Source: an uncultured Paracoccaceae bacterium
GTDB lineage: Bacteria; Pseudomonadota; Alphaproteobacteria; Rhodobacterales; Rhodobacteraceae
Assembly: GCA_913062865.1 (NCBI GenBank)
Contig: CAJXWO010000005.1
Span: 1 to 64,000 of the forward strand
Direction: 5' to 3'
DNA length: 64,000 bases
Shown here one piece after another: positions 2,282 through 49,710 of this stretch. The position numbers and the translations under genes were made by a program. The notes under the pieces were generated by a model. It was not told the DNA's origin and searched no databases. It saw only the letters and a program-made list of their open reading frames with translations. Every line of letters starts with the position of its first letter. Within the stretch, counting starts at the first letter, position 1.

Positions 2282-3811
<1,530 letters not shown>

Positions 3812-5844: not shown

Positions 5845-5915
5845 GAGGGGCGCTGCCCCTCTTGGCCGGGCATGCCCGGCCAATTCACCCCGAGGGTATT
5901 TGGGCCAAGAAGAAG
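5845..5915. repeat. Composite palindromic element between lpd and plsC
   Basis: GAGGGGC-gct-GCCCCTC; 22-bp perfect palindrome TTGGCCGGGCATGCCCGGCCAA; then ccccgagggtatttgggccaagaagaag. Confidence 0.88.
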
Positions 5916-30836: not shown

Positions 30837-31727
30837 ATGAAACGCCCACCCCCGCCCCTGAACCAGATCCGCAGCTTCGAATGCGCCGCGCGGCACCTGA
30901 GCTTCACCCGCGCGGCCGAAGAGCTGGGCTATACTCAAGCCGCGGTCAGCACCCATATTCGCGGGCTCGAGAAATATGTGGGCCGGCCGCTTTTCATACG
31001 CCACGCCCGCAGCCTCGAGCTGACCGAAATCGGCGAGGCGTTTCTGCCCACGCTGCGGCAAGCGCTCGCGCAAATCGACACGGCAACCGATGCCATAGTC
31101 ACCAGCTCGCGCGACCAAAGCGTGATCCTTGCCTGCCCGATCAGCCTGGCCGAGAACTGGGTGCCCGGCGTCCTGGCCGGGTTTCGCGCCCAGCACCCCG
31201 AGATCGAGGTGCTGGTCCATGGCACGATCTGGAACCTCGCTGCGGACGAGATCGCGGATGTCGTCATCTCAATCCACCGCGCCGACGAGGTGCCCGAGGG
31301 GCATGGATGGCTGTGGGACGAAAAGTTGCTGCTCCTGGCCGATCCCGAGACCGCTGCAGAAATGACCCGGCCCGAGGATCTGCTGGACCGGCCCAAGATC
31401 GTGTTGTCCGGGCGGCAGGAATACTGGCGGTTGATGGGCGATGCGCTGGGGCTGCCCCGGTTCGAGATCGAGCCTGTGCTGAAAACGAACTCGTCAAACG
31501 TATCGCTGGAGTTTGCCGCGCGGGGGCTGGGCGTTGCCGTGTCGCTCTATTCGCTCTCCGAGATCTACCTGCGCCGCGGTCTTCTGGCCGAGCCGTTCGG
31601 CCTGCGCCCCCAAAGCCCTTGGAGCTATTACATCAGCGCACGGCCCGGCCGGAAAACCGGCGCGGCGCGGGAGCTTTTCGACCACATCCGCTCTGCCGCC
31701 AGAACCATGCCGGGCATCACCGGTTGA
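30837..31727 (+). CDS. LysR-type (GcvA-like) transcriptional regulator
   Basis: N-terminal wHTH NQIRSFECAARHLSFTRAAEELGYTQAAVSTHIRGLEKYVGRPLFIR; divergent from the MmgE/PrpD operon. Confidence 0.93.
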   Translation: MKRPPPPLNQIRSFECAARHLSFTRAAEELGYTQAAVSTHIRGLEKYVGRPLFIRHARSLELTEIGEAFLPTLRQALAQIDTATDAIVTSSRDQSVILACPISLAENWVPGVLAGFRAQHPEIEVLVHGTIWNLAADEIADVVISIHRADEVPEGHGWLWDEKLLLLADPETAAEMTRPEDLLDRPKIVLSGRQEYWRLMGDALGLPRFEIEPVLKTNSSNVSLEFAARGLGVAVSLYSLSEIYLRRGLLAEPFGLRPQSPWSYYISARPGRKTGAARELFDHIRSAARTMPGITG

Positions 31728-31733
31728 GGCGTA

Positions 31734-31799
31734 TGCCTTCGGTCGACCGAAGGCAAACCTGCTGCGTCGACGCAGCAGCGAACCGCGCGGTCGACCGCG
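31734..31799. repeat. Array of three perfect palindromes with GTCGAC cores spaced exactly 24 bp
   Basis: TGCCTTCGGTCGACCGAAGGCA (31734-31755), CTGCTGCGTCGACGCAGCAG (31759-31778), CGCGGTCGACCGCG (31786-31799). Confidence 0.95.
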
Positions 31800-31823
31800 A
31801 GGAGCTAAGGACCGCCCCCTGAC

Positions 31824-34109
31824 CTACCCGCATTTGCTATGCCCGCAATTCATGCAGGTCATGCACCCCTCGATCATCTGCATCTCGTACTGCCCACAGC
31901 TGGGGCAGGCCCGCCCGCGCTTGCCGCTGTCCAATCCGATCACCTGCGCCTGGGGGTCGGATTTCAGCCCCATCCCCTCGCCCTCCATGAAACCGATGGA
32001 GACAAGGTGGCGTTCGATCACCCCGCCGATGGCAGCAAGGATCGAGGGGATATACTTGCCCTGCACCCAGGCCCCGCCGCGCGGGTCGAACACGGCCTTC
32101 AACTCTTCAACGACAAAGGACACATCGCCCCCGCGCCGGAACACGGCCGAAATCATCCGCGTCAGCGCCACGGTCCAGGCGAAATGCTCCATGTTCTTGG
32201 AGTTGATGAACACCTCGAAGGGCCGCCGGTGCCCGTTGATGACGATGTCGTTGATGGTGAGGTAGATCGCGTGCTCGCTGTCGGGCCATTTGAGCTTGTA
32301 GGTGTTACCTTCCAGCGTCTGCGGGCGGTCCAGGGGTTCGGACATGTAGACGACCTCTGCGCCATCCGCGCCCCGGACCTGCTCCGGGGCCTCACCGGGC
32401 GCCACGTCTTCGGTTTCGCTCACGCTGAGCACCGACCCGGTCACATCGTTCGGACGGTAGGTGGTGCAGCCTTTGCAGCCCGTCTCGTAGGCTTGCATGT
32501 AGACATCCTTGAACGCGTCGAAATCGATGTCTTCCGGGCAGTTGATGGTTTTCGAGATCGAGCTGTCGATCCATTTCTGCGCTGCCGCTTGCATCTTCAC
32601 ATGCGCCAGCGGCTCAAGCGTCTGGGCGTTGACGAAATACTCGGGCAGATCCGCATCGCCAAATGTGTCGCGCCACATCTGCACGGCGTAATCGACCACC
32701 TCTTCCTCGGTGCGCGATCCGTCCTTTTGCAGGACCTTGCGCGTGTAGCTGTAGGCAAAGACCGGCTCGATCCCCGAGGATACGTTGCCGGCATAGAGGC
32801 TGATCGTGCCCGTGGGCGCGATCGAGGTGAGAAGCGCGTTGCGAATGCCATGCTCGGCCACGGCCGCGCGCACATCTTCGTCCATCGCCTGCATGGTGCC
32901 AGATGCCAGGAACGGCTCTGCCTCGAACAGCGGAAAGGCCCCCTTTTCCTTGGCGAGGTTGACCGAGGCAAGATAAGCCGCTCGGGCGATAGCCTTGAGC
33001 CATTGCTCGGTTTGTTCCGCCGCCGCGTCGGAGCCATAGCGCAGCCCGGTCATCAAGAGCGCATCGGCAAGCCCCGTGACACCCAGCCCGATCCGGCGCT
33101 TGGCCTGCGCCTCTCGCGCCTGCGCCTCGAGCGGGAAGCGCGAGGCATCCACCACGTTGTCCATCATCCGAACGGCTGTCGCGACCAGACGGGTCAGCTC
33201 GGCCTCGTCGATCCCGGCCCCTTCTCCGAAGGGATCGCGCACCAGCCGGGCGAGGTTGATCGACCCCAGAAGGCAGGCACCATAGGGCGGCAGGGGCTGT
33301 TCGCCGCAGGGGTTCGTCGCCGCGATGGTCTCGCAATAGTTCAGATTGTTCATCGCGTTGATACGGTCGATGAAGATCACCCCCGGCTCTGCATAGTCAT
33401 AGGTCGAGCGCATGATCTTGTTCCACAGATCGCGCGCCTCGACGGTGTGATAGACCTTGCCGTCGAACTGCAACTCCCAAGGGCCATCGGCTTTGACTGC
33501 CTCCATGAAGGCATCGGTCACCAGAACGGAGAGGTTGAACATGCGCAGGCGCGCCGGGTCGGACTTGGCCGCGATGAACTGTTCGATATCCGGGTGATCG
33601 CAGCGCATGGTCGCCATCATCGCACCGCGGCGCGAGCCCGCGGACATGATCGTGCGGCACATCGCATCCCACACATCCATGAAGGACAAGGGCCCCGACG
33701 CATCCGCCGCCACGCCCTTCACATCCGCGCCCTTGGGCCGGATGGTCGAGAAATCGTAGCCGATCCCGCCGCCCTGCTGCATGGTCAGCGCGGCTTCTTT
33801 CAGCATCTCGAAAATGCCGCCCATGTTGTCGGGGATGGTGCCCATGACGAAGCAGTTGAACAGCGTCACCGACCGCTCGGTGCCTGCGCCCGCGGTGATC
33901 CGGCCTGCAGGCAGGAACGTGAACCCGTCCAGAGCGTCGTAGAACGCTTCTTCCCACTTGGCCGGCTCCGCCTCGACGCTGGCTAGGGACCGGGCGATGC
34001 GGCGCCAGGTGTCCTCGACCGTCAGATCATGGGGCGTGCCATCGGCCGCCTTGAAGCGGTATTTCATGTCCCAGATGGCTTCGGCGATGGGGGCGGTGAA
34101 CGTGCTCAT
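31824..34109 (-). CDS. nrdJ: Adenosylcobalamin-dependent (class II) ribonucleoside-diphosphate reductase
   Basis: NCFVMGTIPDNMGGIF, NPCGEQPLPPYGACLLGSINLA, SIAPTGTISLYAGNVSSGIEP; C-terminal Cys motifs; start corrected to the ATG at 34109. Confidence 0.93.
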   Translation of the reverse strand: MSTFTAPIAEAIWDMKYRFKAADGTPHDLTVEDTWRRIARSLASVEAEPAKWEEAFYDALDGFTFLPAGRITAGAGTERSVTLFNCFVMGTIPDNMGGIFEMLKEAALTMQQGGGIGYDFSTIRPKGADVKGVAADASGPLSFMDVWDAMCRTIMSAGSRRGAMMATMRCDHPDIEQFIAAKSDPARLRMFNLSVLVTDAFMEAVKADGPWELQFDGKVYHTVEARDLWNKIMRSTYDYAEPGVIFIDRINAMNNLNYCETIAATNPCGEQPLPPYGACLLGSINLARLVRDPFGEGAGIDEAELTRLVATAVRMMDNVVDASRFPLEAQAREAQAKRRIGLGVTGLADALLMTGLRYGSDAAAEQTEQWLKAIARAAYLASVNLAKEKGAFPLFEAEPFLASGTMQAMDEDVRAAVAEHGIRNALLTSIAPTGTISLYAGNVSSGIEPVFAYSYTRKVLQKDGSRTEEEVVDYAVQMWRDTFGDADLPEYFVNAQTLEPLAHVKMQAAAQKWIDSSISKTINCPEDIDFDAFKDVYMQAYETGCKGCTTYRPNDVTGSVLSVSETEDVAPGEAPEQVRGADGAEVVYMSEPLDRPQTLEGNTYKLKWPDSEHAIYLTINDIVINGHRRPFEVFINSKNMEHFAWTVALTRMISAVFRRGGDVSFVVEELKAVFDPRGGAWVQGKYIPSILAAIGGVIERHLVSIGFMEGEGMGLKSDPQAQVIGLDSGKRGRACPSCGQYEMQMIEGCMTCMNCGHSKCG

Positions 34110-49635: not shown

Positions 49636-49650
49636 CGGCAGGGGACCGGG

Positions 49651-49698
49651 CCAAGACTTTTCGAAAAAGTCTTGGCAAAACTCTAATCAAGAGTTTTG
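49651..49698. repeat. Double hairpin between ABC ATPase and permease genes
   Basis: CCAAGACTTTT-CGA-AAAAGTCTTGG (11-bp stem) then CAAAACTCT-AATCA-AGAGTTTTG (9-bp stem). Confidence 0.9.
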
Positions 49699-49710
49699 CG
49701 GGGGCCTGTC

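Follow-up and report, generated by a model that had tools for sequence, protein, structure and literature searches.

The REP/BIME repeats, best known together with the RAYT (REP-associated tyrosine transposase) genes (PMC2817692), are dispersed intergenic palindromes that are often clustered, lie at the 3' ends of genes and inside operons, and are linked to one protein gene bearing the same type of hairpins beside it. Double-hairpin elements of fungal mitochondrial DNA are short tandem hairpins whose structure is kept while the sequence varies, and they too occur in dispersed copies. The term is found in PMC7218506. Intrinsic (Rho-independent) terminators are stable hairpins located just behind stop codons and enriched between convergent genes, and the inverted repeats at the gene ends of Escherichia coli are mostly such terminators (PMC6060812). 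The element described here, a row of four short perfect hairpins directly 3' of genes, is compared with each of them.

In common with the REP repeats, it is an intergenic, dispersed set of palindromes associated with a protein gene, and its copy number, about 20 in the genome studied, is at the low end of the tens to hundreds of copies typical of REP systems. It differs in that it has far fewer copies and that the four hairpins of an array are different from each other and have variable stems, so that stem identity between copies of one genome ranges from 0.33 to 1.0 and the structure is the conserved part. Further, the linked protein has only 75-85 aa and no Y1 match, and the Y1 transposase domain PF01797 does not co-occur with the arrays: it was found in 2 of 13 carrier genomes and 1 of 13 non-carriers, and not in the genome studied. 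In contrast to the fungal elements, the arrays are bacterial, consist of four hairpins at a fixed pitch, are tightly tied to stop codons and are linked to a protein gene. Compared with intrinsic terminators, they lack a U-tract, stand four in a row and have mostly self-complementary loops. The stems covary as in the structured RNA families of Rfam, but no Rfam family matches the arrays at the gathering score or even at E up to 1. No description of these arrays was found in the literature searched, which comprised open-access papers only.

The lysR-nrdJ array and the element family

The analyzed window is a stretch of 64,000 nucleotides of an uncultured Paracoccaceae bacterium (assembly GCA_913062865.1, contig CAJXWO010000005.1). 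The original prediction described three perfect palindromes of 22, 20 and 14 bp with GTCGAC cores at an exact 24-bp pitch, and this observation was confirmed. The cores are at 31742, 31766 and 31790, although the third unit is better read as a 20-bp hairpin with one mismatch, which is also marked by the covariance model (Table 1). The array occupies 31734-31802 of the 96 bp between the stop codons of the convergent lysR and nrdJ genes. GTCGAC by itself is not enriched in the window (26 seen, 22 expected), and the signal is carried by the spacing and the self-complementary arms: two pairs of cores exactly 24 bp apart were found, whereas 0.01 was expected from dinucleotide shuffles, and one tandem hairpin pair was found in the window as opposed to none in each of ten shuffles.

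Table 1. Positions of the array, its neighbors and other features in the window and in other contigs of the same genome
Feature	Sequence	Position	Strand	Description
Hairpin unit 1	window	31734..31755		Perfect 22-bp palindrome TGCCTTCGGTCGACCGAAGGCA, TCGA loop; matched to covariance model R1
Hairpin unit 2	window	31759..31778		Perfect 20-bp palindrome CTGCTGCGTCGACGCAGCAG, TCGA loop; matched to R1
Hairpin unit 3	window	31783..31802		CCGCGCGGTCGACCGCGAGG, 20-bp unit with one G-A mismatch (31785/31800); perfect inner 14 bp at 31786-31799; matched to R1
Whole element	window	31735..31825		Found by R1 at 48.5 bits, E 1.7e-8 on + and 46.8 bits on -; fourth unit missing or decayed
lysR-type regulator gene	window	30837..31727	+	Open reading frame with N-terminal helix-turn-helix-like sequence, name from the original prediction; stop codon ends 6-7 bp before the array
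nrdJ	window	31824..34109	-	B12-dependent ribonucleotide reductase gene converging on the array, 80 relatives found; stop about 24 bp from the array
Single palindrome	window	5862-5883		Perfect 22-bp palindrome TTGGCCGGGCATGCCCGGCCAA without a tandem neighbor
A+T-rich hairpin pair	window	49650-49699		GCCAAGACTTTTCGAAAAAGTCTTGGC / GCAAAACTCTAATCAAGAGTTTTGC, about 24 bp apart, resembling the hairpin pairs behind small-protein homologues; weak R1 score (E 0.66)
Array in the rplP region	contig C87	4087-4180		Lies with a 2OG-Fe(II) oxygenase-like gene between rplP and rpmC, inside the usual ribosomal-protein operon
Small-protein gene upstream of trpB	contig C42	about 3522-3740		In-frame TAA leaving 54 codons; decay or an assembly error

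The array is not isolated. In the genome containing the window (2.79 Mb, 104 contigs, 86% complete), the pattern KTCGAM repeated three times at a pitch of about 24 bp matches 18 places on the forward strand, and none with the reversed control pattern. These places fall into about ten arrays, most of four units, a typical one being AAGGCGCG[TCGA]CGCGCCTT n5 AAGCGGCG[TCGA]CGCCGCTT n4 CCGCGATT[TCGA]AATCGCGG n5 AAGGGCTT[TCGA]AAGCCCTT. The covariance model R1, constructed from nine arrays without the window copy, identified the window copy, the next match in the window having E 0.49 (E-values of the model are rough). In whole-genome searches the model gives about 20 places in this genome and about 10-30 in several other Rhodobacteraceae genera; since the element is nearly its own reverse complement and is matched on both strands, the counts were halved. 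Of 199 genomes of the family, 15 have matches at E 1e-6 or less, whereas among 296 genomes spread over the class only the genome of the window does, under stricter filters with which weak or few copies can be missed. The carriers include Aestuariivita boseongensis, Roseovarius sp. MMSF_3281, R. azorensis, R. gahaiensis, and Marivita hallyeonensis.

In 100 arrays containing 381 units, the loops are TCGA (267), TGCA (55), TGGA (11), and others in smaller numbers. In four-unit arrays the outer units have TCGA in 154 of 166 cases, the inner ones only in 67 of 166. The closing pair is T-A or G-C in 360 of 381 units. The units are about 20 bp long, with stems of 8 pairs, 2.4% of pairs being not Watson-Crick, and the pitch is 21-28, mostly 23-25, and 22-26 in the full form of four perfect hairpins. 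The cores are mainly TTCGAA, TTGCAA, and GTCGAC, so that the identical GTCGAC cores of the original prediction are a local feature. These cores and the outer AAG/CTT recur, whereas the interior of the stems varies. An outer stem closing the four hairpins is suggested by individual folds and by G-rich left and C-rich right flanks, but matched flanks pair no better than swapped ones (63 of 300 swaps were as good), and it is not claimed.

The stems covary strongly. In the alignment of nine arrays, 99.3% of cells are paired and 23 of 32 pairs have changes on both sides, with a score of 0.602 as compared with 0.140 in shuffles (0 of 500 as good) and at most 0.09 with slid partners. For orthologous arrays upstream of trpB in seven genomes, 96.4% of cells are paired and 16 of 32 pairs have double changes, with a score of 0.390 against 0.121 (0 of 500). 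Thus the structure has been kept at one place while the letters changed. Relatedness is not corrected for in the shuffle control but is kept in the slid control, and covariation does not distinguish RNA from DNA hairpins.

Genomic position and dispersal

Gene orientation was determined by a codon-usage gene caller written for this study rather than by curated annotation. Of the 100 arrays, 49 lie between convergent genes, 51 between same-direction genes, and none between divergent genes, the respective numbers for array-free neighbors in the same loci being 76, 479, and 119 (Fisher p 4e-17 for convergent and 2e-8 for divergent pairs). All 100 lie 3' of at least one gene. The median distance is 13 bp from the stop codon to the array and 74 bp from the array to the next start codon. 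In 27 of the 49 convergent pairs both gaps are 30 bp or less, so that the array is nearly the whole intergenic gap and no other terminator fits between the stops. Canonical hairpin-plus-TTTT terminators seem rare in these loci anyway, being present at 7 of 150 exits of array-free convergent pairs. Several arrays are located inside apparent operons, namely in the rplP region (Table 1), between nuoF and fdh, and upstream of trpB.

The arrays themselves have no U-tract: TTTT occurs within 15 nt at 2 of 149 exits, and in the 8 nt after the last hairpin T makes up 9-12% and C 50-58%. The polarity of the array is random with respect to the upstream gene (15 against 12). Same-direction arrays show G-U on the mRNA strand no more often than A-C (6 against 9), while ordinary 3' hairpins in the same loci show 27 against 12; the numbers are small and only suggestive. 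TCGA or TGCA forms 322 of 381 array loops, whereas 1 of 21 four-nucleotide loops of ordinary 3' hairpins is self-complementary. So constraint or homogenization acts on both strands, which could result from function in both transcription directions at convergent genes, from DNA function, or from correction between arms by template switching.

Both dispersal and long retention occur. Within one genome, hairpins can be identical over all 80 letters at different loci while the linkers differ, as in two pairs of loci (L259 and L262; L257 and L263) of the carrier genome G025. The mean stem identity within genomes is well above that of linkers, for instance 0.67-0.89 against 0.40 in G025. On the other hand, several sites are shared between genera: the site upstream of trpB in many, the nuoF-fdh site in two, and, as judged by eye, a copy behind an lpd-like gene in both the genome of the window and Marivita. 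In R. azorensis and R. gahaiensis the only copy found is the one upstream of trpB.

The associated small protein

The array upstream of trpB starts directly behind the stop codon of a gene encoding a protein of 75-85 aa (...GGVVKRQIRDVERLVG...RRGFQAVENGRHFVVFCN..PIRRLR). Scans of Pfam, NCBIfam, and PHROGs assigned it to no family, the only match being a weak PHROG of unknown function (E 0.0055), and no PDB sequence match was found. The AlphaFold2 model, built from two sequences, has pLDDT 81.6 and the predicted order helix-helix-strand-helix-helix-strand-strand. The C-terminal half of the predicted fold has a winged-helix-like order of elements, but no PDB fold, of a DNA-binding protein or otherwise, was matched at E 0.001 or better, and no fold is claimed.

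The array-linked type of the protein, at 57% identity or more, is present in 19 of 23 carrier genomes and in none of the 76 non-carriers examined (best non-carrier 55%). This association is partly built in, since the protein's own locus holds an array, it is not corrected for descent, and non-carrier status rests on filtered searches. The carrier genomes G208, G127, G159, and Marivita have arrays without this type, and in the genome of the window the gene is interrupted (Table 1). Homologues elsewhere, several per genome, are also followed by hairpins, though of other sequence: 38 of 40 have at least one perfect hairpin and 27 of 40 at least two within 110 nt, as compared with 62 and 19 of 213 control genes. 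Some of these pairs carry one loop in both orientations (TTCGCAGAA/TTCTGCGAA, TTCGCCGAA/TTCGGCGAA), a BIME-like layout. Other hairpin classes have the loops TTCGCAGAA, CTTTCAAAG, and GTAC. The sequences of the small protein and the hairpins are correlated (Mantel r 0.45), but a downstream control region correlates almost as well (0.31 against 0.23), and this correlation is not used as evidence.

Possible function and origin

What the analysis establishes is that the window feature is a three-unit, diverged copy of a dispersed element made of four tandem perfect hairpins, placed directly 3' of genes and conserved as structure while the stem letters change, and that one copy sits directly behind the small-protein gene in nearly all carriers, homologues of this protein elsewhere also being followed by hairpins. 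The anatomy is firm (about 0.95). The function is inferred from sequence alone. As the best reading, we suggest that the array is an orientation-independent 3'-end element, which, transcribed from either side, would fold into a row of stable hairpins that ends or trims the mRNA at a defined place, possibly after Rho-dependent or other termination, shields it from 3'-to-5' exonucleases, and keeps convergent transcripts from running into the opposite gene; inside operons it would separate cistrons, as BIMEs do. The copies may have spread from the small-protein locus, to which their maintenance may also be tied, and may be bound by its product, a REP/RAYT-like arrangement without a RAYT. This reading, function included, remains tentative (about 0.45). 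The family and its copy number, the independent model hit in the window, the covariation, the position of the arrays, the rarity of canonical terminators and the link to the small protein favor it, while the lack of U-tracts, the absence of a G-U preference (small numbers), the mostly self-complementary loops, which RNA folding does not require, and the location of some arrays inside apparent operons, where full termination would be costly, speak against it.

The main rival, though doubtful, is a DNA-level site, with each palindrome bound as double-stranded DNA or extruded cruciform by a dimeric protein, perhaps the small protein, and the four-site array forming a symmetric roadblock or topological element between genes. 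The symmetry of the units, loop included, the random polarity, and the identical hairpins with different linkers agree with this. However, stem interiors differ widely between units and genomes and only their complementarity is kept, which a sequence-reading dimer does not require; about 15% of loops are not TCGA or TGCA, and some (TGGA, TTGA, TCAA) are not self-complementary; and the predicted protein fold matches no DNA-binding protein at E 0.001 or better. A mainly selfish REP-like or double-hairpin-element-like repeat, spread by an unknown route and found at 3' positions only because insertion is tolerated there, is also unlikely. The patchy distribution across genera, the about 10-30 copies in many carriers, the identical hairpin sets at different loci of one genome, and the usual co-occurrence with the small protein speak for it, whereas the sites conserved between genera with stems kept by double changes, the trpB-upstream copy as the only one found in R. 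azorensis and R. gahaiensis, the intact hairpins between diverged linkers and flanks, and the strong excess at convergent pairs, which exceeds mere avoidance of promoters, speak against it. Tandem classical terminators would account for stable G+C-rich hairpins right behind stop codons, but are very unlikely given the C-rich exits without U-tracts and the copies inside apparent operons.

The interpretation of the original prediction was partly supported. Of its three options, a hairpin array in a shared 3' region is well supported by the position of the arrays and the covariation of the stems. A binding array for a dimeric protein is not excluded, the loops being mostly self-complementary and G-U pairs not favored on the mRNA strand, though arms that differ between units and stay self-complementary are not what a plain operator array needs. 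A tandem mobile element is partly supported by the dispersed copies, some with identical hairpins, but several sites are orthologous between genera. Chance duplication had been named in advance as the conclusion to draw if the orthologous regions lacked palindromes and no other genomic copies existed. The nrdJ 3' ends of 34 other Rhodobacterales indeed have no such array, but the pair spacing (2 seen, 0.01 expected), the 18 triple matches in the same genome and the window hit with a model not trained on it reject chance or a local duplication.

A further reading, unlikely but not excluded, is a two-part system unknown so far, in which a family of 75-85 aa nucleic-acid-binding proteins, each paralogue reading its own class of tandem hairpins, first behind its own gene and then behind tens of other genes, forms a 3'-end regulon whose sites are kept by structure and whose sequence drifts together within a genome. 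If the small protein binds the arrays, it would be a new post-transcriptional or transcription-end regulator of Rhodobacteraceae, a major marine group, and the arrays link this widespread protein without any family model to a putative nucleic-acid target. Sequence-based repeat finders are poorly suited to such arrays because the stems vary, whereas a structure model recovers them at once, and the arrays offer a compact natural test of how hairpins shape transcript ends in high-G+C bacteria in which classical terminators seem rare. Possible other classes of the same system are two-hairpin perfect palindromes in a Lentibacter-like genome (TTCGAA cores, locus L087 near 4979) and in a Shimia genome (TCTAGA cores, locus L048 near 9368). 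Finally, behind the small-protein homologue in genome G002 (locus L367), the hairpin pairs CAATTCCATCCATGGAATTG / GCATCCCGTCCACGGGATGC are repeated, apparently as several pairs in tandem.
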